Of a DNA stretch of 64,000 bases, positions 1,061 through 46,607 are shown piece by piece; within the stretch, counting starts at the first letter, position 1; each line of letters starts with the position of its first letter. Both the position numbers and the translations under genes were made by a program. Origin of the DNA: a bacterium (lineage in GTDB: Bacteria; Acidobacteriota; Polarisedimenticolia; Polarisedimenticolales; Polarisedimenticolaceae); the NCBI GenBank assembly GCA_024226515.1, contig JAAELQ010000146.1, positions 62,001 through 126,000 of the forward strand, in the 5' to 3' direction. Under the pieces are notes generated by a model. That model did no database searches. It saw only the letters and a program-made list of their open reading frames with translations, and was not told the DNA's origin.

Positions 1061-1210
1061 CCCGATCCGGCGTCGGTCGCTGGTTGGCGTGGTTTTGGCA
1101 GGAAGCCGTGTGCCATCCGGAGGGGATTCGCGGTATGTTCAGGGCGTAGTATCGCTCGCCTCCCCCGGCGATCGGTGGTCAGGCAGGCGATCGTCGCGTG
1201 GGGGAGCGCC

Positions 1211-4200
1211 ATGAATCGACGTACGCGCCGGAAAACGGTGGTTTTCGCGGGCCTCGCAACCGTCCTCATCCTCGGAACGAACAGCATCCTCCCGATCGAG
1301 TCGCCGGACTCGACGGAGTGGCTCGCGGGCGTGGTACGCGAGATCGCCCAGCAGCAGCAGGGGATCGGGAACCCGGTCTGGACGTATGAGGCGGATTCGA
1401 CGTTCGCCCGGCTGGGCGTCTCCGTGGGCACGGCCGGCGACGTCAACAACGACGGCTTCGACGACGTGATCGTCGGCGGGAACAGCTACTCGAACCCCGA
1501 GACGGTCGAGGGGTTCGCCTTGCTCTTTCTCGGTTCAGCGTCGGGACTCTCCACGACTCCGGACTGGGTCGTGGAGGGTGGCGATGTGGGCGCGGGTAAT
1601 CTGGGACGTTCGGTGGGCACCGCCGGTGACGTGAACAACGACGGCTTCGATGACGTGATCGTCGGGGCGTCGACGACCTCCTTTAACGGCAGTGCGATGG
1701 TGTTCCACGGATCGGCGACCGGGCTGTCGTCGGCGCCGGACTGGACGGTGGTCGGTACGGATTCGGTGGAGCGTTTCGGACAGGCGGTGGGCACCGCCGG
1801 CGACGTCAACAACGACGGCTTCGACGACGTGATCGTCGGAGCTCCCGAATTCGACGACGGGCAGAACGGCGAGGGGCGGGCGTTGATCTACTTCGGCTCG
1901 GCTACGGGGCTGCAGACGAGCGCCGCCTGGACCACCGAGGGCAACCAGAACTTCATCAGGCACGGCGCCTGTGTCGGCACCGCGGGAGACGTGAATCTCG
2001 ACGGCTACGCGGACGTGATCGTCGGCGCGCCGAACTTCCGCAACGGCGAGTCGGGGGAAGGTCGAGTCGCGGTTTACTACGGCTCGCCCACGGGCCCCGT
2101 GACCACGGCAGACTGGGTCGCCGAGGGTGGGGATATCGGCGTGGCCCTGGGGACCTCCTGCGGGACCGCCGGAGACTTCAACAAGGACGGGTTCAGCGAC
2201 GTGATCGCCGGCTTCCCCTACTGGGACGGCCCGTCCGACCAGGGCCGGGTGAGCGTCTATTTCGGGGGCCCGACCGGTCTCGAGGCCTCTCCCTCGTGGT
2301 CGGCCTTCGGCGGCCAGTCCGGCGGACGGATGGGGACCACGGTCGCCTCGGCCGGGGATTTCAACGGCGACCTCATCGATGACGTGATCATCGGCGCCGA
2401 GGGCTACGACACCCAGGCCAACGGCGGCGGACGCGTCTGGATCTACTACGGCGCCTCGGGCACGCCGGACACGACGGCGGACTGGGAGCTCTCGGGGACG
2501 ATCCCGTTCATTCCGATCGGCTCCAGCCTGGGCGCGGCCGGGGATGTCGACAACGACGGCTTCGGCGAGGTGATCATCGGCCAGATGGAATACTCCAATC
2601 CCGAGGAGGACGAGGGCCGCGCGCTGGTCTACGACGTGCTCGCTCCGACGTGTGTGGACGAGGACGGGGACGGATTCGGTCAGCTTCCGGATGCGACCTG
2701 CCCCGGCGGCCCGGTCGTCGACTGCGACGACAGCAATCCGAACTGCGCCGTCGACTGCACCGACGTCGACGGGGACGGCTACTGCGTGACGGCGGATTGC
2801 GACGACTCCCTGGACTTCTGCCTGGGCGACTGCTCCGATGCGGATTCGGACAGCTACCCGGACTGCAAGGACAACTGCCCCGCCGATCCCAACCCGGATC
2901 AGGGTGACAGTGACGGTGACGGCTTCGGAGATGTCTGCGATCCGTGCAGCGCTGCCGACGCCGATGGCGACCAGGTCTGTGACGTCGACGACAACTGCAT
3001 CACGACGCCCAACAGCGATCAGAGCGACGCAGACGGGGACGACGTCGGAGACTCGTGCGACGGCTGTCCGGGCGGCGCCACCCAGGATGTGGACGGGGAC
3101 GGCGTCTGCGACGCCTTCGACAACTGCCCCACGGATCCCTCGGAGACGCGCGCGACCCGGCTGAACGCTCCCCTCACGCTCCACGGCGACGTCGCGCGCT
3201 ACGGCGGAAGCGACGACGGGCAGTGGGTCGTCTACATGGCCGACCAGGACACCGCCGGAACGATCGAGCTGTACAGCGTTCCCGCGGGCGGCGGCAGCGT
3301 GATGAAGCTGAACGGCCCCCTCGTCGTCGGCGGAAACGTTGTCGACTTCGTGGTTTCCCCCGACAGCCGGTCGGTCGTCTATCGCGCGGACCAGGACAGC
3401 GACGAGCGCTTCGACTTGTACAGCGTGCCGATCACGGGTGGAACCGTGGTATCGCTGACCTCGTCCGGAGGCACCGGCGTGGAGTCGGATTTCGGCGTTT
3501 CCACCGACAGCTCGCGCGCGATCTTCCTCCGTCGCGAGCCGACCTGGTTCGACAACTTGATCTACTTCAGCGCGCCCCTGTCCGGAGGGACGCCGGACGC
3601 GATCAACCCGTTGCTCGGAAGCGGTCTCGACGCGATGCCACCGTTCGTGGTCAGCGCCGATGCGAGCCGCCTCGTGTTCAAGTCCGAGGGCGCAGGCTCG
3701 CTGCCCCGGCTCTGGAGCGCGACACTCGACGGCTCATCGATCGTCGAGCTGCTGCCCCCGTCGGGCGTTCCGATCATCGGCGCCTTCGCCGTCTCGCCCG
3801 ACAGCTCGCGCGTCGTCTTCAGCGCCGACGCGGTCACGTTCGGGCTGCTCGCCAGCGCGCCGCTCGCGGGCGGCTCCACGATCGGACTCGGAGGCGGCGG
3901 TCTCGACGAGATGCTCTACGGATTCCGCATCAGCCCACAACCGGTGAGTGGTGCGCATCGTGTCGTGTTCTCGACGTCTCTTGCGGGACTGCGCAGCTCG
4001 TCCGTGTCCGGAGGCGGCGGTGCGCTGCTCGACGGATCGTTCCTCGCCGGGACGTCGTTGTCCATCACCGACAGCGGCCAGGTGGTCTACAAGCCGAGCT
4101 TCATCGACGAACTGCGCAGCGTCCCGGTCACAGGGGGGGCGCCCGCAGATCTGACGCCGCCCCTGGCGGGCGGCGAGCTGCAGCCTTTCGGCGTGACCCA

Positions 4201-4990
4201 CGACGACGGAACCGTCGTCTATCGCGCGGACCAGGACACCGCGGATCTGCCGGAGCTGTACAGTGTGCCGATCGGCGGAGGGAACTCGATCAAGCTGAGC
4301 GGTACGCTGACCAGCGGCGGAGAGGTCGCACAGTTCGCCATCTCTCCCGGTTCCGACGTGGTGCTCTATCGCGCCGATCAGGAACTGGACGATCGGTTCG
4401 ACCTGTTCGGCGTCCCGTCCGGCGGCGGGGCTGCCCTGCAGCTGAATCTCCCGCTGCCGAGCGGGGGCAACACGTTCGACGACATCGCGATCAGCGCCGA
4501 TTCGATCTACGGACTCTACAGCGCGGATCAGTTCACGATCGATGTCGACGAGCTGTTCAGCGTGCGCCTCGACACCGACGGGGACGCCGACGGCGTGCTC
4601 TCGAGCTGCGACTGCGACAGTGGCGATGCCGACAGCTGGTCGATTCCCGGCGAGGCGTCGGCGTTGCTTCTCTCACACTCCGGCGGAGCGGGGGGGACGA
4701 CGACGCTGACCTGGGCTCCGCCCGATTTTCTCGGAGCGGCCGCGCTGACCTACGACACCCTGCGCACCGATCGGCCCGACGGGTTCGATCCGGCGTCGGG
4801 GGCCACGGTCGATGTGATCGAGCCGGGCGGCTCGGATGAGATCTCGGTCGACGGCGACGACCCGTCCTTCGTCTTCTACTACGTCATCCGTCCGCTCAAC
4901 GCGTGCGGGGCAGGCTCGACCGGCTGCGGACGCGATTCCGGAGGCGGTCTGGACAGCGATCTCGACGGCATCACCGACGACTGCGAGTAG
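1211..4990 (+). CDS. Giant secreted FG-GAP / thrombospondin-3 / propeller protein
   Basis: A 1259-residue exported protein. ATG at 1211 has GGGGGAG upstream and gives a basic N-terminus with a hydrophobic stretch at residues 8-25 (signal peptide or anchor). Residues about 57-475 hold seven FG-GAP (integrin-alpha-like propeller) repeats with the calcium loop DVNNDGFDDVIVG. Residues 480-643 are a thrombospondin type-3 array rich in DxDxDG calcium motifs and cysteines. Residues 647-1117 form a second propeller of TolB/WD-like repeats carrying YRADQD and LYSVPI. The last 130 residues return to Asp-rich and fibronectin-like sequence ending with LDGITDDCE. Likely a cell-surface calcium-dependent adhesin or polymer-binding protein; the ligand is unknown. 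No enzymatic motif is visible. Confidence 0.8.
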   Translation: MNRRTRRKTVVFAGLATVLILGTNSILPIESPDSTEWLAGVVREIAQQQQGIGNPVWTYEADSTFARLGVSVGTAGDVNNDGFDDVIVGGNSYSNPETVEGFALLFLGSASGLSTTPDWVVEGGDVGAGNLGRSVGTAGDVNNDGFDDVIVGASTTSFNGSAMVFHGSATGLSSAPDWTVVGTDSVERFGQAVGTAGDVNNDGFDDVIVGAPEFDDGQNGEGRALIYFGSATGLQTSAAWTTEGNQNFIRHGACVGTAGDVNLDGYADVIVGAPNFRNGESGEGRVAVYYGSPTGPVTTADWVAEGGDIGVALGTSCGTAGDFNKDGFSDVIAGFPYWDGPSDQGRVSVYFGGPTGLEASPSWSAFGGQSGGRMGTTVASAGDFNGDLIDDVIIGAEGYDTQANGGGRVWIYYGASGTPDTTADWELSGTIPFIPIGSSLGAAGDVDNDGFGEVIIGQMEYSNPEEDEGRALVYDVLAPTCVDEDGDGFGQLPDATCPGGPVVDCDDSNPNCAVDCTDVDGDGYCVTADCDDSLDFCLGDCSDADSDSYPDCKDNCPADPNPDQGDSDGDGFGDVCDPCSAADADGDQVCDVDDNCITTPNSDQSDADGDDVGDSCDGCPGGATQDVDGDGVCDAFDNCPTDPSETRATRLNAPLTLHGDVARYGGSDDGQWVVYMADQDTAGTIELYSVPAGGGSVMKLNGPLVVGGNVVDFVVSPDSRSVVYRADQDSDERFDLYSVPITGGTVVSLTSSGGTGVESDFGVSTDSSRAIFLRREPTWFDNLIYFSAPLSGGTPDAINPLLGSGLDAMPPFVVSADASRLVFKSEGAGSLPRLWSATLDGSSIVELLPPSGVPIIGAFAVSPDSSRVVFSADAVTFGLLASAPLAGGSTIGLGGGGLDEMLYGFRISPQPVSGAHRVVFSTSLAGLRSSSVSGGGGALLDGSFLAGTSLSITDSGQVVYKPSFIDELRSVPVTGGAPADLTPPLAGGELQPFGVTHDDGTVVYRADQDTADLPELYSVPIGGGNSIKLSGTLTSGGEVAQFAISPGSDVVLYRADQELDDRFDLFGVPSGGGAALQLNLPLPSGGNTFDDIAISADSIYGLYSADQFTIDVDELFSVRLDTDGDADGVLSSCDCDSGDADSWSIPGEASALLLSHSGGAGGTTTLTWAPPDFLGAAALTYDTLRTDRPDGFDPASGATVDVIEPGGSDEISVDGDDPSFVFYYVIRPLNACGAGSTGCGRDSGGGLDSDLDGITDDCE
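1424..1839 (+). repeat. Near-identical 53-base repeats encoding FG-GAP loops
   Basis: Three copies at 1424-1476, 1613-1665 and 1787-1839 encode VGTAGDVNNDGFDDVIVG with only a few silent differences. The later blades of the same propeller (from 1974 onwards) have diverged much more. This suggests recent internal duplication or gene conversion within the gene. Confidence 0.75.
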
Positions 4991-11842: not shown

Positions 11843-14800
11843 CTAGGGGCAGGCCCCCGAGAGATTCTTGAGCGTGCTGCCGCACGTGCCGCTGGCGGTC
11901 GTTCCGTTCCGCTCTCCCGAGGTCGCCGAACCCCAGGAACTCTCCGCGCCGAGACCGTCGTCGGCGATCAGCAGGAACCACAGATCACCCGTCGGCGCCG
12001 GATCCCAGACGTGCGGCTGGGCGATCCCGCACGTCGCTCCGTCGAAGCCGTGCGAGGACACGTTGCCCAGCGAACCGTAGAGCAGCTTCGTGCTCTGCGG
12101 CGAGCATTGCGGATCCCAGCGGATCAGCAGCGCCGTGCCCGCCACGTCGAGCCGGTCGGCCAGAACCGGAAGCGTGGACAGGCTGCCGTCGGGAATCGGC
12201 GGCGGCGAGCCCGCGGCCGCCGCGCAGACCGGCATGTCACAGGAAGCCGCCGACGTGGTTACCACCTCGACGTTGTCGATGTGCCAGAACCACTCGAAGT
12301 CGGCGTCGTAGTAATGCCAGCGGAGCTGCAGGTCGCCGGCGCCCGCCGCCGCGGACGTGATGTCGAGAGACACGTGCTCCGGATTCGGTGAGTCGGCGGT
12401 CCACTTGCCGACGTTGATCCACTCGCCGCCGGTCGAGGACGAGCGCACGTCCACATCCGCCGTCTCGGGCCCGAGGTGGTTGTAGTAGTGGTCGAACTCG
12501 AGCGACACGCTCAACGCGGCCGAGACGTCGATCGGCGTGGAGATCAGCTCCTCGTCCATCGCCACGCCCGAGCCCGTGCAATCGGAGTCGACGGTCATCC
12601 AGTTGCCCGCGAGGGGCGGGTTCGGGTCGGTGTTGGAGCACCCGCCCGGATCGGACGTGTTGTCGATGTACCACGTGTTGCCGTCCGCCAGACCGTCCAC
12701 CATCGTCCAGCCGGCGGGCAGCCCACCCTCGAAATCCTCGAACAGCGCCGTCCCCACACCCGGGATGGTCCGGCCGATCTCCTGCGCGAAGCCGCCCGTC
12801 CAGGATCCCTGGTCGGCGTGGATCGCGACCGCGAATTCGATCGTGTCGCCGCAACCGAACCCGTCGGGAATCTGCGCGGCGAACGCGGGCGGTAGCGGAT
12901 GCGCCGATCCCGACTCGGGAATGTCCGGATAGGCCGCGTCGCCCTTCAGCATCACCACGCCGGGATTCAGCGGAACGATCTCGGCCCATACGCCGCTCAG
13001 CGGGTCGGTCCCGTCGTTCTCGAGCTCGAGCGCGAAACGAATCTCCTCGCCGGCGTCCCACTGCCCGTTGCCCGCGCCGATTCCGCCCGTCGTGCAGACG
13101 TCGTCCTCCACGAGATGCTCGGTCGACCGCGCATGCGGGCCGCACGCCTGGGCCGGGTAGAGCAGGGTCAGGGTCCAGTCGTTCAGCGTGCCCTGGTCAC
13201 CGCCCGCGAGGTCCTCGACGCGCAGCGTCCAGTCGCCGGCGGCGTCGATTCCGTCGACGTCCGAAAGCGGGGTGTCCGGAATGAAGGAACCGCTGAACGG
13301 GGCGCTGCCCGAGGAGATCGGGGTCGTGGCATCGTCGTCGAACACGGTGCCGGCGAAATCGTTGCCGCTGCTGCCTCGACGGTCGGACAGCGTGATGGCC
13401 GTGCCCGTCGGCGAGATCAGCGACAGGCGCAGATCGCCGTCGTAGGTATGCGTGATGTCCACGTGGACGATCGCGTCGAGCACCGTCTTGTCGTCCGTCA
13501 CCGAGATCACGCTGTCGACCGTCGTGTTGTCGTCGATCGCCCGCGGCGTATCGCTGCTGTCGTAGGACGGGTTGACGTTGCGTCCCGTCTCGAACGAGTA
13601 GTACGCGCCGCCGTTGTTCGCCGAGGCCGTGTTGCCCACCGCGTCCGCCGAGGCGACCCAGAAGTAGTGCGCGCTGCATTCATCCAGACCGGTCAGGCGC
13701 ACCGCGTGCGACTCGACCAACTCCGTATCGACCGACATCTCCGTGCCGGGAGGGCTCGTCCCATAGTGCACCGTGCTGTCGGCCGGCTCGCCCGTCAGCC
13801 AGCCGACCTGGGCCGACCTGCCCGTGACGTCGTACGACTGGACGCCGGTGATCACCGGTGGCGCGCAGTCCAGGTCGGCGTTGTCCGTGACGTTGACGTC
13901 GGTCCCGCCCGCGCCGTCGTCCGCGTCCGTGTACTCCACGGTGAGAACCCCGCCGTGATTCACCGAGAGAGCGCCGTCGCCGTTCAGCGGCGGGTTGGGC
14001 GTCGTGGGGAACGTTGCCGCATAACGCCCCTCGCCCGGAGCGACCTGCGTCAGCGTGACGAGCTCGGGAACGACCTCGGTCGTCGACGAGAGCTCGATGG
14101 TGATCGTCGGCGGATCCCCGGGGATGTTGTCGTCGCGGACCGTGATCGCGAGCGTGTCGTCGCAGGAGTAGGCTTCGTCCTCGAGCAGCACGAACCCGGC
14201 CGGCGCGTAGGCATTGACGTGAGTCGCCAGGGCGTCGACGATCCCGTAGCCGCGAACGTACTCGGGATCGAACCCGAGACCGCCCGGATCGTAGTCCGCG
14301 TTCGTGAACAACTCCTCGCGCATCCGCTGTACGGTCCAGTTCGGGTTGGCCTGGATCAGGCATGCCACGGCGCCGGCGACGAGCGGGGTCGACAGCGACG
14401 TGCCGTTCGCGGTCGTGAACGCGGTCGTGCTGGTCGAGCTGATCGTCGCGGTGCTCGAGCCCTGCGCGAGCAACTCGGGCTTGACCCGTCCGTCGGCCGA
14501 AGGGCCGTCGGAGCTGAACGAGGAGATGCTTCCCGAGCTTGTCACGGCCCCGCCCGTGATGACGAAGTGCGCATCGGCCGGAGCGATGATGCTCGACGTT
14601 GCGGGGTTGGTGTCGTGATACTCGTTGCCGGCCGCGGTGACGCTGTGCACGCCGGCGTCGCTTGCGGCGTTGATCGCGATCGTCGTCACGGCCGTCTCGC
14701 CGTCCAGATCGGCCTGCGTGTACCAGTCGATGTACCCGAGCGAGGAGGTCGTCATGTCGACGCCCTGCGCCTCGAGGAACTCGAGGCCCGCGACGTAGTT

Positions 14801-15697
14801 GTCCTCTTCCGCCTGATACTCGCCGGTCGTGTCCTCGGTCTTGGCCAGCGCGAAGGAGGCGCCGAATGCGCCGCCCACGAGCTCGCCCGGGAAATACGAG
14901 CCGAGCGTTCCGAGGATCTTCGTCCCGTGATCGTGCTGGCTCGAGGGATCTCCCGGCTGGTTGCTCGTGTCCGGATCGTCGTCGACGAAGTCGTACTCCG
15001 CAACCACATCGACTTCGTGCCCGGGCTGATTGAACGCCGCGTGGTCCCGCCGAAAGCCTGTGTCGAGAATGCCGACGATCACGCCTTCTCCGGTATAGCC
15101 GGCCTCGTGCAGCGCGATGAGGTTGATCTGGGTCAGCTGGGCCGTCGAGCGGCCGTAGTCCAGCGCGGGCGATCCCGCCGTGGGCTGCGCGGACTGCTCG
15201 GCCTGCGCCTCGACGAGCTCCGGGCGCCTCGAGCGCGCCACGGGTTGAACCTTGACCACTGCAGACAGCGCGGCGATGGCGTCGATCTGCGGGCGCGTGG
15301 CCTCGGCGCTGACCGCGTTGACCCAGCGGCTGCGGATCCGCACGCGCGCGCCCGTGTCGATCACCTGTTCTACGTAGGACTCGTGCAGCGGCAGGTCACG
15401 AACGTCGAACAGCGGGCCGCCGTCCACCGCGTGGCGGCCGCGCAGCCGTCGTCGCTCGACCGCGCGTGGAGAGTGGGACTCCGCGACCCGGGCGAGGGCC
15501 TCGTCGCGCGCCCTGCCGTCGGGCAGTCCCTTGTCGACGAAGAAGATCCAGACGCGGTACGGACCCGCCTCGGCCTCGAACAGACGGTTCATCGCGGGGG
15601 AGAGCTTGGACGGCGGCTCGGCGTTCGGCCCGGCTGCCGGGATCAGCGACGGGACGAGCAAACAGAGCAGAACGAGCGAGAGGCGAGTTCTCGACAT
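11843..15697 (-). CDS. Secreted subtilisin-like serine protease (S8) with P domain
   Basis: A 1284-residue exported protease. Residues 1-23 are a signal peptide and 25-170 a propeptide. The catalytic domain has Asp212 (GILDTGF), His257 (DHGTKILGT), the oxyanion Asn358 (AAGNEY) and Ser434 (GTSLSTP), so the triad is complete. A fibronectin-like region follows. Next comes a proprotein-convertase P domain with THTYDGDLRLSLISPTGT and WTLRVEDL, then a jelly-roll segment starting FEDFEGGLPAGW. The final 120 residues share WDPxPxGDLWFLL, AESSWG and a Cys-Pro end with the M28 peptidase at 22112. GGAGGT sits just before ATG 15697. It probably degrades extracellular protein. The gene converges on the DUF2779 gene. 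Confidence 0.9.
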   Translation of the reverse strand: MSRTRLSLVLLCLLVPSLIPAAGPNAEPPSKLSPAMNRLFEAEAGPYRVWIFFVDKGLPDGRARDEALARVAESHSPRAVERRRLRGRHAVDGGPLFDVRDLPLHESYVEQVIDTGARVRIRSRWVNAVSAEATRPQIDAIAALSAVVKVQPVARSRRPELVEAQAEQSAQPTAGSPALDYGRSTAQLTQINLIALHEAGYTGEGVIVGILDTGFRRDHAAFNQPGHEVDVVAEYDFVDDDPDTSNQPGDPSSQHDHGTKILGTLGSYFPGELVGGAFGASFALAKTEDTTGEYQAEEDNYVAGLEFLEAQGVDMTTSSLGYIDWYTQADLDGETAVTTIAINAASDAGVHSVTAAGNEYHDTNPATSSIIAPADAHFVITGGAVTSSGSISSFSSDGPSADGRVKPELLAQGSSTATISSTSTTAFTTANGTSLSTPLVAGAVACLIQANPNWTVQRMREELFTNADYDPGGLGFDPEYVRGYGIVDALATHVNAYAPAGFVLLEDEAYSCDDTLAITVRDDNIPGDPPTITIELSSTTEVVPELVTLTQVAPGEGRYAATFPTTPNPPLNGDGALSVNHGGVLTVEYTDADDGAGGTDVNVTDNADLDCAPPVITGVQSYDVTGRSAQVGWLTGEPADSTVHYGTSPPGTEMSVDTELVESHAVRLTGLDECSAHYFWVASADAVGNTASANNGGAYYSFETGRNVNPSYDSSDTPRAIDDNTTVDSVISVTDDKTVLDAIVHVDITHTYDGDLRLSLISPTGTAITLSDRRGSSGNDFAGTVFDDDATTPISSGSAPFSGSFIPDTPLSDVDGIDAAGDWTLRVEDLAGGDQGTLNDWTLTLLYPAQACGPHARSTEHLVEDDVCTTGGIGAGNGQWDAGEEIRFALELENDGTDPLSGVWAEIVPLNPGVVMLKGDAAYPDIPESGSAHPLPPAFAAQIPDGFGCGDTIEFAVAIHADQGSWTGGFAQEIGRTIPGVGTALFEDFEGGLPAGWTMVDGLADGNTWYIDNTSDPGGCSNTDPNPPLAGNWMTVDSDCTGSGVAMDEELISTPIDVSAALSVSLEFDHYYNHLGPETADVDVRSSSTGGEWINVGKWTADSPNPEHVSLDITSAAAGAGDLQLRWHYYDADFEWFWHIDNVEVVTTSAASCDMPVCAAAAGSPPPIPDGSLSTLPVLADRLDVAGTALLIRWDPQCSPQSTKLLYGSLGNVSSHGFDGATCGIAQPHVWDPAPTGDLWFLLIADDGLGAESSWGSATSGERNGTTASGTCGSTLKNLSGACP

Positions 15698-15945
15698 GCC
15701 TACCTCCACCGCGGGCGAGGGCCTCGGTCGGGACCCTAATCATTCTGCGAAAACGGTGAAGCAGCAATTCGAATAGGGGATAAGCCGTGTCTCCCCAGCG
15801 CGGCGCCCCTTCCCGATCGTGAGCGTCGAGCGGGGCGCGTGCGATGTTCGGACCTTCGACGGCGCAGTCGCAGTCGGGGAGGCTTGAAATACAGTCCTGA
15901 GCTTCGTTGGCCGCTCGGCGGGCCTCGTCTGCCTCGTTCACAACG

Positions 15946-18900
15946 TCACGGGCAATCCGGTATGAACCGCGGCAGAATCTGGATCCGATCTTTGCTCGGT
16001 TCCGATACGAAGAGGCGGCCCAGCGGCCCGATTGCCAGGCCCTTGGCCTTCAGGGGACCGCCATCCGCCGTGTCCGAGCCATCGATCGAGAGGACCCTGC
16101 CGTCGTTCCTGATCACGAGCTTCGGACCCAGCCCTGACGCGCCACAGCTGTCCAACGCAAGCAAGTCATCGTATTCGCGAGACGCGAAGCCTCGAAACGT
16201 ACGAGGGGTGCCGCCCTCGTCACCTACGAGGATCCACCCGAAGTTGCTCGAGGGGGTTTCCAACCAGGATTGGACGTCCTCCACCATCTGCTGGGAAGTC
16301 CAAGAGAACGTGCCGTACTGACCGGGAACCTGTTGTGTTGCCGTCGCGAGGGGATCGAAGGCGCCTCCGAGTGACGACCACAACGAATCATCCCAGAACC
16401 TGTGAGACCAGGTCGCATCTGGAGCCACCGCGGGGACGCCTACTCCGGCCCAGGTTGCCGAGGGGCCCTCGCCCCAGTCCTCCGTGACTCGATGGAGACT
16501 GAACTCCTGAGGGACCGGGTTTTGCTGGGGGAGGTTGTTGACGGCCAGGCTCAAGACCACATGGCTGGCCGTGAACCCGTCCGGCAACCCGCCAGCGACA
16601 TCGAAAGCGATCAAGGCCCGCCGCAGCGAGTAGTTGTGATTGTTTCCGGAGCGCCCGGAGAAGATCGCCCCTCCGGAGCCGTTGCTGTAGTCCTGGTGCT
16701 CCTCGAATATCGTGTTGTCCTTGCTCGGGCTCAGACAATACGAAGCCGCCAATCGCTCGGAATCGAAGACCTGGATGCGATCACCCGCGAGCTCCACGAC
16801 ATAGAATTTGCCGGTCGCGTCCACCTCCACGGTTCTTGCGTTCTGGAACTGGCCGTCGCCCGGCCCGGGGATCCCGGCGTGGCAGGGCAGCGTTGTCGCA
16901 TCGCACACTTCGAGCGCTTCGAGCCCCGTGTCCACACCCCAGCCCGCCGCGTATGCGAAGGCCCCGTTCGGCTCGAAGACCTGGATGCGGTTATTTCGGG
17001 TGCCGCCAACGACGATCGATCCCGACGGGGTAACGGCGACACCCGCAGGCCCAACAGAGAATTGTCCGGCACCATCACCCTCGATCCCCGGGTGGCAGGG
17101 CAGTGAGTTATCGGTACACACCTCGAATTCGGCTGCGTTCGTATCGACTCCCCAGCCGAGCATGAAACGGAAGTTGTGATCGTCATCGAACACTTGAAGC
17201 CGAGATTGTTGGGGGTCCGAGGCATAGACCCAACCTCGCTGGTCCACGTGCAAGTCATATGGCCCGACGTTCGCGAACTCTCCTGCTTCGGTTCCCGCAC
17301 TCCCGAACTCGGCGAGGTACTCCCCGTCGCCGTCGAATACGAGGATCCGATTCCCACCCCGGTTCGCCACATACACATCGCCTTGGGGCGCGATCGCCAC
17401 GTCCTGCGGATTCCAGATCTGGCCGGTTCCCGGTCCCGGCTGGCCCGGAAAACAGGGCAACGAGGAGATGTCACACACCTCGAGCTGCGGCGTGCCGGTA
17501 TCGACACCCCAACCGAACATGAACAGGAACTGGCCTGCGGAATCGAGTACGTGGATCCGATGTTGGGAGTACTCGCCCACGTAGAGGCGGCCCGACGGAC
17601 CCAATGCGATGCCGGATGGACCGTCGAACTGTCCGGGTCCTGAACCCGGTCCCCCGACGATCCTCGGCGCGGGTGCTGCGCCACATCCATTCTCGGCGCG
17701 AACGAGATAGTATCGGATTCCGTCTCCGGGAGGCATGTAGGGATCGAGTGCCACGAGGTCGGTGTCGTCCGACTCGACGCAGGCATGTGCGAAGAATGAA
17801 TCCGCCCGATCGGAGCCGATGACGTCGTAGGAGACCACTGCGCCGCCAGGGTCTGCGGAGGAGTCCCACGCCAGTGTCACCTTGTCGCCGTGCATGACGA
17901 GGTTCGTCGCGGTATCGGGATGCTCCCAAACCTGATCGTCGGCATCGTTGCAATCGAAGCCGGCGCAGTCGTTGCCGCCGAGGCCCGGGTCACCGTAGCC
18001 GTCGGCGTCGCCGTCAAGACAACTGTCCAGGCAATCGAGCAGGCCATCTGAATCGACGTCCTCGTCCGGAACGCCGCATCCACAGGTTCCCGGAGCGATC
18101 TTCAGCGGATCCAGCGGACAGCCGTCGACGCAATCCGGTGTGCCGTCGGCGTCGGCGTCGGATTCCGCTTCGCCGCATCCGCAGGCTCCCGGGTCGGTCT
18201 TGTTCGGGTCCAGTGGGCATCCGTCGCCCGGATCGCAGGCGCCGTCGCCGTCCGAGTCCGGGCCGTCATTCGCCGGAACCCCGTCCGGCAGGAGTCCGAA
18301 TCCATCGACTCCGATGGTGCAGTCGTCGCACGTGTCCGCGTCGGAGTCGCCGCACAGATTGGGATTCAGCGTCGCCGGGTCCGATCCATCGGCGACCCCG
18401 TCGTTGTCATCGTCAGGATCCAGACAGTTGACGTCGCCATCCATGTCCGTGTCGTTCACGTCCTCGGTCACCCCACAACCACAGACCCCGGGGGCCGTCT
18501 TTTCCGGATCCTCGGGGCAGCCGTCCGTGGCGTCGCACGTTCCGTCCCCGTCGCCATCGGGGCCGTCGTTCCACGGATTCGAGTCATCCAGTGGACCGAA
18601 CCCATCGACTCCGACGCTGCAGTCGTCACAGGTGTCCAGGTCCGCGTCGCCACACTGGTTCGGATCCAGTGGATCCGAACCGTCGGCGATCTCGTTCGCG
18701 TCGGACACGCCATCGTTGTCATCGTCCGGATCGATGCAATCCGGGTCGTCATCGCTATCGGTATCCGTTTCCGGGTTGCCGCAGCCGCAATGCTCCGGTT
18801 CCGTCTTGTCGGGATCGTCGGGACAATCGTCACAGGCGTCTCCGACACCGTCTCCATCGCCATCGTCCTGATCGAGATTGGCGTCGTCGGGGCAGTTGTC

Positions 18901-20982
18901 CCCCGCGTCGCAAATCGTGTCGCCATCGGTGTCCGCGCCGTCCTGGCTCGGATCGAACGCTCCCGAGGAGCAATCGTCACACAGGTCGCCATCCGAGTCG
19001 ACGCACACGAGCGGATCGTCGTCCGCGCTGTCGGTACACGCATACTGCGGCAGGTTGCCGTCGCACTGTCCGTCGCACACGGCAACGCCGTCCTCGTCCG
19101 CATCGATGCACGGTCGCCAGTACAGCTGACCGGCGAGATTGTTCGAGAAGTCCAGTTCCGGCCAGAGGACGAAGTACTGGTTGTTCGCCGTATTGTGGGA
19201 GATCGCCAGTTGCGAGCGACCGACCACGTCCGCCGTGGAGATCGTCGGCGAGTCCGGGAGCATCGAACCGTCACTACAGACCACGCGGATCTCGATCTCG
19301 TACGGTGTTCCGCCGCCGACCTCATCGAGCATGGCGATTCCCCAGCAGCCATCGATTCCGGCGCCTGCGATCCGCCCGTCGTATGCGTCGTCTTCCTCTG
19401 CGAGGATCGCGACCTCGCTGAGACTGGCCGCGGGGCTGTGACCCAGGACGAGGTCGCCGACGATATCGGGACCAGGAAACGAGTCCTCGGTCTGCTGCAC
19501 GATGAGGCAACGCTCTGCCGTGAGGTCGCAGGAAACATCGGTCGGATGTCGCACGATCGGGGACGATGGCCTGAAGTCATACTGGAGCGCGGAGCCTAGT
19601 CGCCAACTGACCACCGACGTCTCACCCCGGGGATTGGTTCCCCAGGCGATCACGAAACGATTCGAGCCACTGAGGGCAATCGACGGGTCCACCTCGTCCT
19701 CGGGTTGCTCGGAAACGGTGTTCACTCCGTAAAGGCCGGTCGTCATACTCACGTTGGCCACACGGATGTCCCGATTGAGAGGGTTGCCGTTGTTCTGGTC
19801 TTCATAGACGACCTGACATGTGTCACCGAAGCAGGCGATGTCCGGGTCGAACTGATTGTCGAAGCTACCGTCGACCGGAAACGCATCTAGATAGGTCGCC
19901 CCGTTCTCGTCGAGGATCTCGCAGTAGATGTCGATGTCGCCGGTCCTGCTGTCTTCCCAACAAACCAGCCAGCGGTTGAACTGCGAGCACCATCCCACTG
20001 CAGGCGCTCGCGATTGCGATGTTGACGCGTCGATCAGTATTGGAGTCGCAGTTCCGACAGACCCCGAGACGAGGATTCCGAGGATATCCCAATCCGTCGG
20101 ATCGTTGTCATACTCGTAGGCGACGAGATACTTGTCTGACGTAGGGTTGTAGGCGACCCCGAGCTCCCGAGCCTGGTTGTTGGTTAGCCAGTAAACCGGA
20201 CCGTAGAGTGGGTCGATTTCCACCGGATACGATGCCGCGTTCAGCCAATTGCCATCGAGCAGGATGGCCAGGTGATCGCCCGACAATCGTAGCTGTCCGC
20301 GTAACTCCCGGTCGGAGGCGTCCCGAACCCGTACGCTTCCGACACTGAAAACATGGCGTTCGTCGTCGAGGAAGCGCAAGGGCTCCCCAGGTCCGGGATG
20401 GGAATTCTCTACGGTCAAAGTCGTTCGAACGATCCCGCGGATTTCCAGGTCACCGGTCAAGGTCGCTGGACGCTCCTCGAGCACGAATATCTGCTCCAAG
20501 CCTTCCGGTAGTATCTCGTATCGCTCGGCAACAGCATCCGCATGCCGGGTTTCAATCCAGTTCGCGGCGTTTCGAGTCGAGCGCTGCTCCGGAACGGACC
20601 GGTGTAAGGCCTTGCCCTCGGAGAAGATCCCGGAGAAACGGTACGAGAAACGTGGCTCGATGGATTCGTCGCTCGCTCGCGGCCACGTCATTCCCCACTG
20701 ATCGTGGTCGAATCGAACGTGATAACGCCCCGGGCCGGCAATCAGAGCGCCTGTTTCTGTGGGGACCAGTTCTAGTTGGCGGAGATCCACGGGTCTCAGA
20801 ATCGGTAGTGGAACTCCCACGGGATCGTTCGTGAGTGCACTCCCTTCGGGTTCCGTCTCGGCCAGTTCGGCATCGCGGGTGACGTTGCGTTCGTAGAGCC
20901 GGAACGTCCGGGTCTCTCCTCGGGTAAGAAAAACCGACAAGCCGATCAGAGCGAGAACTGGCACGAGAACAGAGTGCTTCAT
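15946..20982 (-). CDS. Giant secreted thrombospondin-3 / NHL / DNRLRE protein
   Basis: A 1678-residue exported protein. Residues 1-22 form a signal peptide. Residues about 40-230 are unassigned beta-rich sequence, followed to about 600 by propeller-like repeats. Residues 627-1017 are a long thrombospondin type-3 array of Asp-rich calcium loops with cysteines. A fibronectin-like segment ending RYYLVRAENGCG leads into NHL repeats (about 1100-1412), several bearing a Cys-Cys loop of the form GWGVDT..EVC..LPC. Then comes a DNRLRE-type beta-sandwich (about 1414-1624: SKDNTIFEE, RALIAFDV, GFASREYDD). A last NHL-like strand set closes the chain. No catalytic motif is visible. Adhesion or polysaccharide binding at the surface is the likely role. 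The 5' half looks somewhat less G+C-rich than its neighbours. Confidence 0.8.
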   Translation of the reverse strand: MKHSVLVPVLALIGLSVFLTRGETRTFRLYERNVTRDAELAETEPEGSALTNDPVGVPLPILRPVDLRQLELVPTETGALIAGPGRYHVRFDHDQWGMTWPRASDESIEPRFSYRFSGIFSEGKALHRSVPEQRSTRNAANWIETRHADAVAERYEILPEGLEQIFVLEERPATLTGDLEIRGIVRTTLTVENSHPGPGEPLRFLDDERHVFSVGSVRVRDASDRELRGQLRLSGDHLAILLDGNWLNAASYPVEIDPLYGPVYWLTNNQARELGVAYNPTSDKYLVAYEYDNDPTDWDILGILVSGSVGTATPILIDASTSQSRAPAVGWCSQFNRWLVCWEDSRTGDIDIYCEILDENGATYLDAFPVDGSFDNQFDPDIACFGDTCQVVYEDQNNGNPLNRDIRVANVSMTTGLYGVNTVSEQPEDEVDPSIALSGSNRFVIAWGTNPRGETSVVSWRLGSALQYDFRPSSPIVRHPTDVSCDLTAERCLIVQQTEDSFPGPDIVGDLVLGHSPAASLSEVAILAEEDDAYDGRIAGAGIDGCWGIAMLDEVGGGTPYEIEIRVVCSDGSMLPDSPTISTADVVGRSQLAISHNTANNQYFVLWPELDFSNNLAGQLYWRPCIDADEDGVAVCDGQCDGNLPQYACTDSADDDPLVCVDSDGDLCDDCSSGAFDPSQDGADTDGDTICDAGDNCPDDANLDQDDGDGDGVGDACDDCPDDPDKTEPEHCGCGNPETDTDSDDDPDCIDPDDDNDGVSDANEIADGSDPLDPNQCGDADLDTCDDCSVGVDGFGPLDDSNPWNDGPDGDGDGTCDATDGCPEDPEKTAPGVCGCGVTEDVNDTDMDGDVNCLDPDDDNDGVADGSDPATLNPNLCGDSDADTCDDCTIGVDGFGLLPDGVPANDGPDSDGDGACDPGDGCPLDPNKTDPGACGCGEAESDADADGTPDCVDGCPLDPLKIAPGTCGCGVPDEDVDSDGLLDCLDSCLDGDADGYGDPGLGGNDCAGFDCNDADDQVWEHPDTATNLVMHGDKVTLAWDSSADPGGAVVSYDVIGSDRADSFFAHACVESDDTDLVALDPYMPPGDGIRYYLVRAENGCGAAPAPRIVGGPGSGPGQFDGPSGIALGPSGRLYVGEYSQHRIHVLDSAGQFLFMFGWGVDTGTPQLEVCDISSLPCFPGQPGPGTGQIWNPQDVAIAPQGDVYVANRGGNRILVFDGDGEYLAEFGSAGTEAGEFANVGPYDLHVDQRGWVYASDPQQSRLQVFDDDHNFRFMLGWGVDTNAAEFEVCTDNSLPCHPGIEGDGAGQFSVGPAGVAVTPSGSIVVGGTRNNRIQVFEPNGAFAYAAGWGVDTGLEALEVCDATTLPCHAGIPGPGDGQFQNARTVEVDATGKFYVVELAGDRIQVFDSERLAASYCLSPSKDNTIFEEHQDYSNGSGGAIFSGRSGNNHNYSLRRALIAFDVAGGLPDGFTASHVVLSLAVNNLPQQNPVPQEFSLHRVTEDWGEGPSATWAGVGVPAVAPDATWSHRFWDDSLWSSLGGAFDPLATATQQVPGQYGTFSWTSQQMVEDVQSWLETPSSNFGWILVGDEGGTPRTFRGFASREYDDLLALDSCGASGLGPKLVIRNDGRVLSIDGSDTADGGPLKAKGLAIGPLGRLFVSEPSKDRIQILPRFIPDCP

Positions 20983-21306
20983 GGTGCATCTCCTCGGCAG
21001 GTGCGCTGTGCCAGGACTGGCGTCTCTGATCTTCAGTCGATGCGACGCGCAAGAACGCTACAGAGTCGGGGCGTTGATGCCCGCGATGTTCTCGTCCGGG
21101 GAAACGCTTGTCAAGGAGTTTCTCGTCGGGTTTGGGGATTCGAATGATCTCGAAAACAACGGAGCACGCCCCGCGAAGCGTGATCTGCCGAAGCGTCCAG
21201 CGCGCCGCGAGCTCCGCTCAGGACCGCGAGCCTTCTTGGCCTCCGACGGGAGGGCCTCCCTGCACCACTGGGGTGGGGGAGACGCGATGATCGGGGCCGG
21301 ATGCAG
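20983..21306. other. Intergenic region upstream of the NHL/DNRLRE gene
   Basis: No gene is evident in these 324 bases. On the minus strand a perfect TTGACA at 21114-21109 is followed after 17 bases by GAACAT, a weak -10. It could start transcription of the 1678-residue protein about 100 bases further on. Nothing else stands out. Confidence 0.4.
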
Positions 21307-21903
21307 TCACTGCTGGAAGCAGTAGAGAGGGAGCACCGCATCACAGCCGAAGTAGATGTCGGCGGTCCAGGTCGAGTCCGTGGCCGCGTGGTCCCCCACG
21401 TACCCGGCACCCGTACCCACGGCGCTCAGGGTCCAATCCATGCAGGAAGCTTGCGGAGTTCGAGCCGTGCCGTTCACTGCCACGTTGCTCCACGCCGCGT
21501 TCCAGGAAGACGTGACCGGCACACCGTTCTCGTCGACGCTGATCGGGTTCTGGAGGTCGCCGTCCGTCAGATCGAACCAGTCGTCCGCGACCAGGGCGCC
21601 GTCGGTACGCACGTACCCCGGACCCGACTTGATGAAACGCGTGTCCGGGCTGCCGGTCGAGTCGGCCAGCCACGCCTTGTACGAGCCGAGGAGGCCGGCG
21701 GCAGCGGCCAGATCGCTGCAGTGCTGATCCGCCCCGTCGAGCCCCATCATGTCCGGCGCGTACTGAACGCTGGACAGGAACACGACCCTGCCGGCCATGG
21801 GATCGTCGCCGGAGTCGTCATCGTCGAGGATGTCGCACGATCCGATCAGTGCGACCGCGGCCAAGATTATGCCGGCCGCGATCGAGCGTTGGGCCGTCAG
21901 CAT
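21307..21903 (-). CDS. DUF1554-type lipoprotein
   Basis: A 198-residue lipoprotein. The N-terminus has a hydrophobic signal ending in a lipobox (LIGSC), followed by an Asp-rich linker DILDDDDSGDD. The remaining chain from VVFLSSVQYAPDMMGLDGAD to the end YCFQQ matches the DUF1554 fold known from Leptospira and other bacteria. It shows AAAAGLLGSYKAWLADS, YVRTDGALVADDW, DLTDGDL and two paired cysteines (in SCMDW and FGCD). This fold is related to collagenase-like C-type lectin domains, so ligand binding at the cell surface is likely. It is co-directional with the M28 peptidase but separated from it by a long palindrome. ATG at 21903 has GGAGG just upstream. Confidence 0.8.
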   Translation of the reverse strand: MLTAQRSIAAGIILAAVALIGSCDILDDDDSGDDPMAGRVVFLSSVQYAPDMMGLDGADQHCSDLAAAAGLLGSYKAWLADSTGSPDTRFIKSGPGYVRTDGALVADDWFDLTDGDLQNPISVDENGVPVTSSWNAAWSNVAVNGTARTPQASCMDWTLSAVGTGAGYVGDHAATDSTWTADIYFGCDAVLPLYCFQQ

Positions 21904-22030
21904 GGTTGTCCTCCCGGATCCGGGCTCCAGTTGCAGTATGCATCAGCGAACGCGGCGGCTACACGACGATAGAAGACCGACTCGGTCGAGTCTGGTCCTG
22001 CACCGGATCAACCACGACAGGGCCGAGCGG

Positions 22031-22107
22031 GTTCTTGAACAGGCACAACGTGGTGCGCAGAATGCGGCGCCGCAAGCTTCGCACCACGTTGGCGCTGTTC
22101 GAACAAC
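22031..22107. repeat. Long palindrome: 12-bp perfect arms around an inner palindrome
   Basis: CAACGTGGTGCG (22046-22057) and CGCACCACGTTG (22080-22091) are perfect reverse complements. The 22-base spacer contains the 12-base palindrome TGCGGCGCCGCA (22063-22074). The flanks extend the symmetry imperfectly: 22031-22045 and 22092-22107 both contain TTC/GAACA elements in mirror order. The element starts 5 bases past the M28 stop on the minus strand and has no T-tract. It could be a terminator-like or mRNA-stabilising hairpin, a REP-like element or a protein-binding site. The spacing of its AAC/GTT ends is reminiscent of an integron attC, but the conserved heptamers do not match. Confidence 0.7.
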
Positions 22108-22111
22108 GACC

Positions 22112-24748
22112 TCACGGGCAGCTGGCGGACAGCTCCTTTTGCGTGCTCCCGCAGGTGGCACTGGCGACCGGGCCGTTTCGCTCCCCGGACGATGCTTCGC
22201 CCCACGAGCTCTCTGCGCCCGCATCGTTGCCGGCGACCAGCAAGAACCACAGGTCGCCGGCCGGCACCGGGTCCCACGTTGCCGGGTTGTCGATGGTGCA
22301 AACCGCATCGCTGATCGTCCAGGTCGACACCTCGCTCAACGGGCCGTAGACGATCTTCGTTCTCGCCGGTGCGCACTGGTCGTCCCAGCTCACCTGGATT
22401 TGCGTTCCGCCGGCAGCGATTCGCGACGCCCGCATCGGCGAGGTTCCGGGACTGCCGTCCGGGATCGGCGGCGGTGCGCAGCCGGGGCAGCCTAGGGCTC
22501 GGATTCTCACGTCATCGATGTTCCAGCCGGAGTACTGCCAGCCGCCGTCGGTGGACCCCTGGGTCCAGCGCAGGTAGACCGCCGGCTGCCCGTCGGCCAC
22601 CTCGGAGATGTCGTATTCCACCATCGTCCAGGCCGCGTCGGTCAGCTCCGCACTGTTGTCCCACACCGTGGTCCAGCCGGTGCCGTCGTTGCTCACCCGG
22701 AGATAGGCGTGATCGTAGGTCGGCTGTTCCACGTTGAGGTAGCGCTGGAACTGCACGCTGACCTCGGCCAGCCCGGTGCAGTCGATGGCGCCGGTGGTCA
22801 GGTGGGTCTCGGGCAGGCTGTTCTCGTAGTCGCCCGAGAGGTTGTAGCCGTAGACGTTCGCCCCGGTGGCGCCGCCGATGGGGTCGGCATTGCCGTGCTC
22901 GCCGCCGCCGCCGGTGGGTGCGCCCCAGGCCCAGAGGCCCTCGGCGGTCCAGCCGGGATCGTCGTCCATGTTCCACTCGTACTGCAGCAGCGGCACGCCG
23001 ACCCGGAGCTTCACCTCCCGCGAGGTGTCGCCGTCATGGGAGGAGGTGTTGACGAAGGCGACCGTGTCGGTGTGCGTGCCGTCGGGTAGCGCATCGGCGT
23101 TGGCAGCGAGCGAAACGGCGACGGTGTCCGTGGCTCCCGGGGCCAGGCTGCCGCCGGTGGTGGAGAGGGTGACCCAGCTCTGAGCCTTGCTCACCGTGTA
23201 GTCGATGGTGCTGTCCCCGGTGTTCTCCACGGTGTAGTCCATGCTCGCCGGGGTGAAGGGACCGCCGCTCTGGCCTGCGGCATCGAACGAGCCGAACGGG
23301 GTGACCCTGAAGGAAGACGACGACTGCAGGCCGGCCACCTCGGCCAGCGTCGCCGCACAGGCCTGGGTGATCTCACTGCCGATATGGGCGGTGGCGGCCA
23401 CGTTGGTCCAGTCGTCGGTACTCTCGTGGTAGTGCGGGTAGCTGCTCCAGTCCCAGTCGATGGCCAGGAAGGCGGGGATGCCCGCCTGCTGGAAGGGGAC
23501 ATGGTCGCTGCCCCAACTGCTGTATTCCTTGCGGCTGTTCAGCGTGGTGTAGTCGGCAACGGCGTTCTCCATCGCCGCCATCAGGGACTCCCAGGGCGTC
23601 TCGCCCTCGATGATCACGCCGTAGTCGTCATCGTAGAAGCAGACCATGTCGGCGGTGATGGCCGAGACGATCGTCCGGCCGTCGGCCACCGCCTCGTCCA
23701 CGAAATGCTCGCTGCCACGAAGCCCCACCTCTTCCGCATCGAAGAGCACGAACTGCACCGAGCGGTCGAACTCGAGCGCCGCGGCCATCCTGGCCACCTC
23801 CAGCACCAGGCTGGAGCCGGAGCCGTTGTCCTCCGTGCCCGGGGCGAGCGTGCCGGGCTGCTCGCTCGTCGAGTCGTAGTGCGCGCCCAGCACAACGTAT
23901 TCGTTCGGTGAGGTGACGCCGGTCTTGGTGGCCACCACGTTGCGGCAGGGCGTGCCGTTATAGATGAAGTCGTCGAATTCCACCGTGTAGCCGTAGCCGG
24001 CGAGCTTCTCGAAGAGGTAGCCCCCCACCAGGTTCTTGTCGGCGCTGTTGTAGTAACGGGTCTTCACCTTGTGCGAGCCGCCGTCATGATCGAACGGCAC
24101 CGCTCCGCTGATCTCCTGCAGTAGCTGCTGAAAGGCCGTCTCGTCGAAGAGCGCGACGAACGCCGCCACGTCGTCCGGATCGGCAAGCCGGCTGCGGCGT
24201 TCCACCGCCGCCGACACCCGTGCACCGTAGCGTTCCCAACCTGCCGGCGGTGGGTCGGTGGGGATCCGCTGGAGATCGAACCGCGCGGCCAGGAAGGCGG
24301 ATAGATGTTCGATCGGGACCTCGCACAGGGCGAAGTCACCTCCCAGCCGGTGCACGGCACCGAACTCCTCGAGACGCTTCAGCGTCAGCCGGGCCGGCGC
24401 CGCGCCGAGCCGCCGGGCCCGGGCATCGACCAGGAACCACTCGCCGGAAGCGTATGCGGATGTGATGTGAAGAGCAGCGGCCAACGGGTCTCGCTCGGCC
24501 ACCCGGTCAACCGCCAGCAAACCGCCGGGCAGCTCCCAGGTGAGCAGGGCCGGGGACGGTGCGAGGCCTAGCTGCGTCGCCACGTAGCGGTCGACTTCCG
24601 GTAGGTAATAGATCTCCGCGGCTCGGGCCGCGGCGGGAACGAGAAGCACCGTCAACAGAAGGGCAATCGACGCCAGGGTCCGGCTCTCCTTCCTGACAGT
24701 TCCGATCCACAAATGACGGACGGCAAGGCGTGCCGGCGAGAGTTTCAT
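22112..24748 (-). CDS. Secreted M28-family zinc aminopeptidase
   Basis: An 878-residue exported metallopeptidase. ATG at 24748 gives a basic N-terminus and a hydrophobic signal ending in AAARA at about residue 43. The M28 domain (about 245-500) shows the di-zinc ligands in GAHYDST, TEDNGSG, FDAEEVGLRG, TADMVCF and the final HYHESTDD, so both metal sites appear complete. A BACON/ASPM-like beta-sandwich (about 510-610) follows, then a jelly-roll segment beginning WNMDDDPGW. The C-terminal module shares WDPVPAGDLWFLL, AESSWG and a Cys-Pro end with the S8 protease at 11843. It probably trims peptides released by that protease. The palindrome at 22031-22107 follows the stop. Confidence 0.88.
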   Translation of the reverse strand: MKLSPARLAVRHLWIGTVRKESRTLASIALLLTVLLVPAAARAAEIYYLPEVDRYVATQLGLAPSPALLTWELPGGLLAVDRVAERDPLAAALHITSAYASGEWFLVDARARRLGAAPARLTLKRLEEFGAVHRLGGDFALCEVPIEHLSAFLAARFDLQRIPTDPPPAGWERYGARVSAAVERRSRLADPDDVAAFVALFDETAFQQLLQEISGAVPFDHDGGSHKVKTRYYNSADKNLVGGYLFEKLAGYGYTVEFDDFIYNGTPCRNVVATKTGVTSPNEYVVLGAHYDSTSEQPGTLAPGTEDNGSGSSLVLEVARMAAALEFDRSVQFVLFDAEEVGLRGSEHFVDEAVADGRTIVSAITADMVCFYDDDYGVIIEGETPWESLMAAMENAVADYTTLNSRKEYSSWGSDHVPFQQAGIPAFLAIDWDWSSYPHYHESTDDWTNVAATAHIGSEITQACAATLAEVAGLQSSSSFRVTPFGSFDAAGQSGGPFTPASMDYTVENTGDSTIDYTVSKAQSWVTLSTTGGSLAPGATDTVAVSLAANADALPDGTHTDTVAFVNTSSHDGDTSREVKLRVGVPLLQYEWNMDDDPGWTAEGLWAWGAPTGGGGEHGNADPIGGATGANVYGYNLSGDYENSLPETHLTTGAIDCTGLAEVSVQFQRYLNVEQPTYDHAYLRVSNDGTGWTTVWDNSAELTDAAWTMVEYDISEVADGQPAVYLRWTQGSTDGGWQYSGWNIDDVRIRALGCPGCAPPPIPDGSPGTSPMRASRIAAGGTQIQVSWDDQCAPARTKIVYGPLSEVSTWTISDAVCTIDNPATWDPVPAGDLWFLLVAGNDAGAESSWGEASSGERNGPVASATCGSTQKELSASCP

Positions 24749-46085: not shown

Positions 46086-46607
46086 ATGAGCTACCGAACT
46101 CTGGGGTTGGCAGCGCTGGTCGGCTATGTCGTTTGCTTCGGGACGATCCACGCCGCCGAGAGCCTGTGTTGCACTCACGAGACCTATATCTGTTTCTCGG
46201 CGCCCACGCCCGTGGCGTGCGGGATCAACGCCGCCGGCGTCGATTCGTGCGACGAGTGCTTCGCGCCGCAGGCGGCCGGCTCGGTCGAGCCGTTGACGCT
46301 GGACAAGGTCACGGGACCCGGCATCCGGTTGAGCTGGGGTGCGTCGTGCATATCGAGCGACTCGGACTACGCGGTCTACGAGGGGCTCCTCGGCAGTTTC
46401 AACAGTCACGTCCCGGTCGGCGACGCGTTCTGCAGCACGCAGGGGATGCGGCAGGTGACGATCACCCCCGCCGACGGAAGTCGCTACTACCTCGTCGTGC
46501 CGTTCGGCGCGATGCGCGAGGGATCGTACGGGACCGACGGGGACGGCGCTCCGCGCCCTCCGAGCGCGCAGGCCTGCCTGCCGCAGCTCGTCGGGGACTG
46601 TCCGTAG
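46086..46607 (+). CDS. Small secreted cysteine-rich protein with fibronectin-like module
   Basis: A 173-residue exported protein. GGGAGG just before ATG 46086 sets the start, and residues 1-23 are a signal peptide. Eight or more cysteines follow (SLCCTHETYICF, SCDECF, GASC, FCSTQG, QACLPQLVGDCP), suggesting disulfides. The body (about 65-160) is a single fibronectin-like module with GIRLSWGASC, DSDYAVYEGLLG and RYYLVVPFG followed by REGSYGTDGDG. The chain ends in Cys-Pro, like the C-terminal modules of the S8 and M28 proteases. It appears to be a free-standing version of that module. Function unknown. Confidence 0.75.
   Translation: MSYRTLGLAALVGYVVCFGTIHAAESLCCTHETYICFSAPTPVACGINAAGVDSCDECFAPQAAGSVEPLTLDKVTGPGIRLSWGASCISSDSDYAVYEGLLGSFNSHVPVGDAFCSTQGMRQVTITPADGSRYYLVVPFGAMREGSYGTDGDGAPRPPSAQACLPQLVGDCP

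Follow-up and report, generated by a model that had tools for sequence, protein, structure and literature searches.

Two genes for secreted proteases, an S8 (subtilisin-type) protease and an M28 peptidase, lie on the minus strand of the window, the 64,000-nucleotide stretch of DNA analysed here (Table 1). Their products end in ...CGSTLKNLSGACP and ...CGSTQKELSASCP, respectively. A first-pass annotation had noted that the two tails share a series of motifs, and the motifs and coordinates that it gave all proved correct on re-reading. The tails are homologous, with 56% identity across 121 residues (E = 8e-42), and a profile made from 26 copies (A1) matches the S8 module at E = 1.7e-37, the S8 tail itself being among the A1 sequences. 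A free-standing protein of 173 residues, starting at the ATG at 46086, had been proposed as a more distant relative. It was not retrieved by a single-sequence search with one tail; a profile built from 25 other copies, with the protein itself excluded, detects it at E = 9e-21, compared to E ~1 for the best of 500 shuffled sequences, which bears out the relationship.

Between the two proteases is the gene (15946-20982, minus strand) for an exported protein of 1678 residues that contains TSP3-like repeats, an NHL propeller and a DNRLRE domain. This protein has a Cys-Pro terminus, yet its sole module copy is weak and internal, located 575 residues ahead of the stop codon. The C-terminus of the protein encoded at 1175-4990 is possibly another, very divergent copy, judging from a borderline profile match. 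Directly downstream of the M28 gene is a gene (21307-21903, minus strand) for a 198-aa probable lipoprotein, whose signal peptide ends in ...LIGSC.

Table 1. Module-bearing proteins in the window and the module copies and neighbouring domains within them.
Feature	Position	Strand	Remarks
S8 protease	11843..15709	minus	1288 aa; signal peptide, Peptidase_S8, P-domain, choice-of-anchor J, module
Module of S8 protease, C-terminal	11846..12205	minus	four-Cys type; 56% identity with M28 tail
Choice-of-anchor J, directly N-terminal of S8 module	12263..12745	minus	NF038128, 35.7 bits, above cut-off
Weak internal module copy in NHL/TSP3 protein 15946-20982	17674..17892	minus	two-Cys type; A5 profile, E = 1.6e-6 genome-wide
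M28 peptidase	22112..24748	minus	878 aa; signal peptide, Peptidase_M28, BACON-like and choice-of-anchor J-like regions (both below cut-off), module
Module of M28 peptidase, C-terminal	22115..22474	minus	four-Cys type; profile match; copy used for AlphaFold model
Choice-of-anchor J-like region preceding M28 module	22502..22849	minus	NF038128, 28.7 bits; cut-off 30
Free-standing 173-aa protein	46086..46607	plus	signal peptide, short Cys-rich stretch, module at about 46281-46601
Candidate very divergent module copy, C-terminus of 1175-4990 protein (...DDCE)	4690..4990	plus	two-Cys type; A5 profile, E = 0.011, borderline

The host assembly, from the phylum Acidobacteriota, comprises 6.5 Mb in 320 contigs and is 97.5% complete and 5.2% contaminated. 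A search of this genome with a single tail gave 37 places at E ≤ 1, while the A1 profile gave 99 places at E ≤ 0.01, 45 of them below 1e-10. A second profile (A5), built from weaker matches, gave 142 places at E ≤ 1e-5. The two profiles were found by profile comparison to be homologous to each other (probability 98.6%, E = 1e-15). When the matches to both were merged and placed in open reading frames, at least 149 distinct copies were found on 66 contigs, a lower bound that comes from scoring part of the search candidates and reading part of the listed places. The first observation was correct but understated the scale of the phenomenon in this same genome.

A copy was considered terminal if it ends no more than 25 residues before the stop codon. 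By this definition, 125 of the 149 copies are terminal and 24 are internal. When the copies are assigned to their best-matching profile, the A1 type has 42 terminal and two internal copies and the A5 type 83 and 22. Nearly all the open frames (145 of 147) contain a single copy. A cysteine is present among the last five residues, 0 to 4 residues from the stop codon, in 124 of the 125 terminal copies, and 73 of them end exactly in Cys-Pro; among the remaining open frames at these loci, of which many are spurious, the corresponding values are 11% and 0.9%. Since the copies are numerous and mostly terminal, the module is neither restricted to the proteins in which it was first seen nor internal as often as terminal. 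The genome search that the annotation had called for thus yielded many proteins, mostly exported, that end in the module.

The module is about 95–120 amino acids in length. The four-Cys copies have invariant cysteines at positions 36, 61, 110 and 121 of the M28 tail, two invariant glycines and the signature E-G/S-S-W/Y-G...G-x-E-R, in which the Glu and Arg are near-invariant. Inspection of 81 copies showed the full set of four cysteines in 43, the second and the last alone in 36 and an odd pattern in two. Cys 1 and Cys 3 are kept or lost jointly (Fisher p = 1e-20, with relatedness ignored), which suggests that these two form one disulfide and the remaining two a second. The last cysteine of the short type can also be aligned to Cys 3, which leaves room for a different pairing, of Cys 1 with Cys 4 and of Cys 2 with Cys 3. 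Because internal copies carry Cys-Pro as well, this end looks less like a cleavage motif than like the terminus of a fold locked by disulfides.

AlphaFold predicts a confident β-sandwich for both the four-Cys and the two-Cys type, with pLDDT values of 88 and 90. The nearest folds in the PDB are mostly fibronectin type III (FN3) domains, with probability near 1 but of modest significance (E values of 0.01–0.1 and TM scores of 0.4–0.5), and the module is predicted to be an FN3-like β-sandwich. It differs from the FN3 family itself (PF00041) in its conserved Cys pairs, its E-G-S-W/Y-G...E-R signature, its terminal position and its single copy, and the PF00041 model matches none of 26 modules even at E ≤ 1. 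The module matches no sequence family in Pfam, NCBIfam or the PDB, and the NCBIfam search gave nothing beyond two single matches at chance level. The module thus appears to belong to no named family in the libraries searched; NCBI may annotate such proteins generically. Nothing about it was found in open-licence full texts, and it may be described elsewhere.

The suggestion that the module is lineage-specific agrees with its concentration in one class. The A1 (four-Cys) profile matches 38 of the 41 genomes of the host's class, with up to 45 matches per genome, whereas in other classes of the phylum it was found in at least 12 of about 219 genomes, with no more than 18 candidates scored in each. 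All 41 class genomes have matches to the A5 profile, at 5 to 121 places each. The copies that were read in other classes are likewise C-terminal with a Cys end. A search of plasmids for the module gave no match. One genome from another class (L188, G092:C2:20000-39900) encodes a cluster of three module proteins spanning less than 16 kb, next to an open frame of 1562 codons that is related to one of the three. An apparent open frame of 24,905 codons in a relative (L287-L290, G018:C63:1-78500) was rejected as an artefact produced by 72,000 bases masked as N.

The passengers that carry the module are diverse. Where the start of a module protein is visible (70 cases), a signal-peptide-like segment is present in 59, whereas the same rule, which is crude, picks out 12 of 31 open frames in the window, two of them being the module-bearing S8 and M28 proteins. 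Peptidase passengers include S8, M28, M12B, M43 and trypsin-like enzymes, and other enzymes are di-haem oxidoreductases, arylsulfotransferases and one PAD-type deiminase. Multi-haem cytochromes are also found, as are laminin-G, PKD, NHL, Kelch and TSP3 repeats, some of the passenger domains being lectin-like or propellers. At two loci (L080 and L082), the module is carried by multi-haem cytochromes that each contain five CxxCH motifs; one of the two has a weak MtrC/MtrF-like match, and they could be surface electron carriers. Passengers of the M28, S8 and M12B families are found with two or more module groups, which means that there is no fixed link between group and passenger. Homologues of the M28 core at E = 1e-20 are present in four of the 41 class genomes, too few to compare anchors across the class.

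Among 41 passengers compared with NCBIfam, choice-of-anchor J was found in six, choice-of-anchor Q in three and rhombotarget A-like regions in two. The choice-of-anchor models name domains that precede different C-terminal anchors in different lineages, and their location ahead of the module therefore fits an anchoring or sorting role. Five of the nine choice-of-anchor J open frames in the host genome carry the module. Another choice-of-anchor J protein (L165, G000:C245) has two dockerin-like repeats at its end and is without the module; its contig is possibly foreign, given the 5% contamination of the assembly.

The explanation that seems probable, if only just, is that the module is a folded, disulfide-locked and uncleaved C-terminal domain, specific to this lineage, that serves in the sorting, targeting or retention of exported proteins. 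What makes a sorting signal likelier than a binding domain is the combination of a single terminal copy, exported passengers that are unrelated to one another, neighbouring choice-of-anchor domains and concentration in a single lineage. The annotation had offered both a surface-retention or sorting signal and a substrate-binding tag; the former is the better inference from the distribution, short of a demonstration of function, and the latter is kept as a rival. Terminal position by itself does not prove sorting. Also counting against the sorting reading are the lack of any reader, processing enzyme or recurrent neighbour in the searches described below and the 24 internal copies, 22 of which are of the two-Cys type.

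Glycans and proteins are frequent ligands of FN3-like domains, which commonly bind their partners through loops. The module might accordingly bind an extracellular glycan, protein or mineral surface and keep enzymes there, with no role in export, and the lectin-like and adhesive domains among the passengers, as well as the internal two-Cys copies, are consistent with such a role. However, those passengers that are enzymes act on a wide range of substrates and others have no enzymatic function, and the module is nearly always present as one copy at the extreme end, whereas binding modules are often in tandem or at either end. The choice-of-anchor neighbours also argue against a binding domain, which we consider unlikely, albeit deserving of serious weight.

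A lower probability still is given to a purely structural role, in which a cystine-locked last domain would shield extracellular proteins from proteolysis and would have spread by duplication and domain shuffling, without any targeting. The placement of the last cysteine so close to the stop codon, the joint gain and loss of cysteines and the frequency of proteases among the passengers and their neighbours all point in this direction. Yet a cap alone would explain neither the presence of the module on choice-of-anchor passengers nor the E-G-S-W/Y-G...E-R signature that is common to both types, and this explanation appears rather improbable.

The annotation had also recommended looking for a co-occurring processing enzyme or secretion pore, and none was found in searches that covered SprA, exosortase and rhombosortase. 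Sortase-type signals consist of a short motif, a transmembrane helix and a basic end (PMC3237569, PMC11980579). The module resembles LPXTG, PEP-CTERM, GlyGly-CTERM and MYXO-CTERM in being a lineage-specific C-terminal homology on many exported proteins, with choice-of-anchor domains among the passengers, but unlike them, it is a folded domain. Only one of the 125 terminal tails has a 17-residue window with a mean hydropathy of ≥1.6, and none has two or more Arg or Lys residues among the last six. Without a membrane helix or a basic end, the tails do not fit the described substrates of sortase, exosortase, rhombosortase or myxosortase, and the described membrane-sortase processing is thus not involved.

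Exosortase-like genes are present in nine and rhombosortases over the cut-off in four of the 41 class genomes, compared to 38 with the A1-type module. These enzymes do not track the module, and a sortase-type signal was rejected on co-occurrence as well as on anatomy. In two relatives, a module protein is encoded just upstream of a rhombosortase region, but rhombosortase was rejected as the cognate enzyme because the adjoining gene bears its own GlyGly-type tail. Rhombosortase-type genes adjoin a gene with a GlyGly-type C-terminus in these relatives (L196/L197, genomes G005 and G001) and in the host genome (L202), an arrangement that suggests a system dedicated to one target and existing alongside the module. 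Rhombosortase itself was traced through gene adjacency in genomes that have a single target (PMC3237569). Around the module, no recurrent gene family was found at 20 loci from relatives, mostly genomes with few copies, in a survey whose greedy gene calling missed some short module genes.

That the terminal cysteine is cleaved, lipidated or covalently attached by some enzyme, as proposed for MYXO-CTERM with its likewise invariant Cys (PMC11980579), is highly improbable in spite of the near-invariance of this residue and the frequent Cys-Pro ends, given the anatomy of the tails, the retention of the Cys in internal copies, the distribution of exosortase and rhombosortase and the lack of a conserved neighbour gene.

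Among known systems, the C-terminal domain (CTD) of the type IX secretion system (T9SS) is a folded β-sandwich of about 70–100 residues that acts as a signal for outer-membrane export (PMC4804311, PMC11285876). Like the T9SS CTD (TIGR04183/TIGR04131), the module is a C-terminal β-sandwich found on many unrelated, predicted Sec-exported proteins of one genome. Unlike it, the module has conserved cysteines and no match to any NCBIfam model, and its best fold matches are FN3-like rather than T9SS CTDs. There is no sequence match between the module and the CTD models, and membership of T9SS was accordingly rejected. A search for SprA, for which there was no positive control, gave matches in none of the 41 class genomes and in none of 14 control genomes.

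The type II secretion substrates PelI and Pel3 offer a second comparison. PelI interacts with GspC and GspD, and a loop of its FN3 domain is the key signal (PMC7949064). The predicted fold of the module is FN3-like, as in these proteins, and PelI is the third fold match of the short (two-Cys) type. A further literature search for FN3 domains as secretion signals gave no match. However, the FN3 domain of PelI and Pel3 is N-terminal, belongs to one enzyme family and is not sufficient alone, while the module is C-terminal and found on many families. Matches to a GspD-like secretin were obtained in 40 of the 41 class genomes, none of them above the family cut-off, and the secretin is too widespread to discriminate. 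By analogy, the module may be said to work like the known C-terminal sorting domains while being a member of none of those tested.

If the module is a sorting domain, its passengers would leave the cytoplasm via Sec, by way of their predicted signal peptides. The FN3-like tail would then fold in the periplasm, where one or two disulfides may pin the fold and the last cysteine would seal the C-terminus. Recognition of this folded tail, for which the conserved E-G/S-S-W/Y-G...G-x-E-R face would probably serve, would fall to machinery for outer-membrane export or for retention at the surface, which would bring the passenger to the cell surface or keep it there. The weakest step is the identity of the exporter. 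The likeliest candidate might be a type II system, as an FN3 domain already carries part of the type II signal in PelI and Pel3.

A more far-reaching version of the sorting reading is that the class has a sorting code of its own, unrelated to sortase-type signals and to T9SS, in which as many as about 150 proteins per genome would carry a cystine-locked FN3-like tail for a dedicated outer-membrane receptor or translocon to read. This proposal is tentative, and we regard it as doubtful on the whole.

To our knowledge, the placement of enzymes on or beyond the outer membrane has hardly been studied in Acidobacteriota. Even if the module is merely a binding or capping domain, it constitutes a very large unnamed family that is missed by current libraries. 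If it is an address label, a single profile would predict much of the surface proteome across the whole class. The module would then be usable as a reporter tag for localisation, and the search for its reader would become a defined genetic and pull-down problem.
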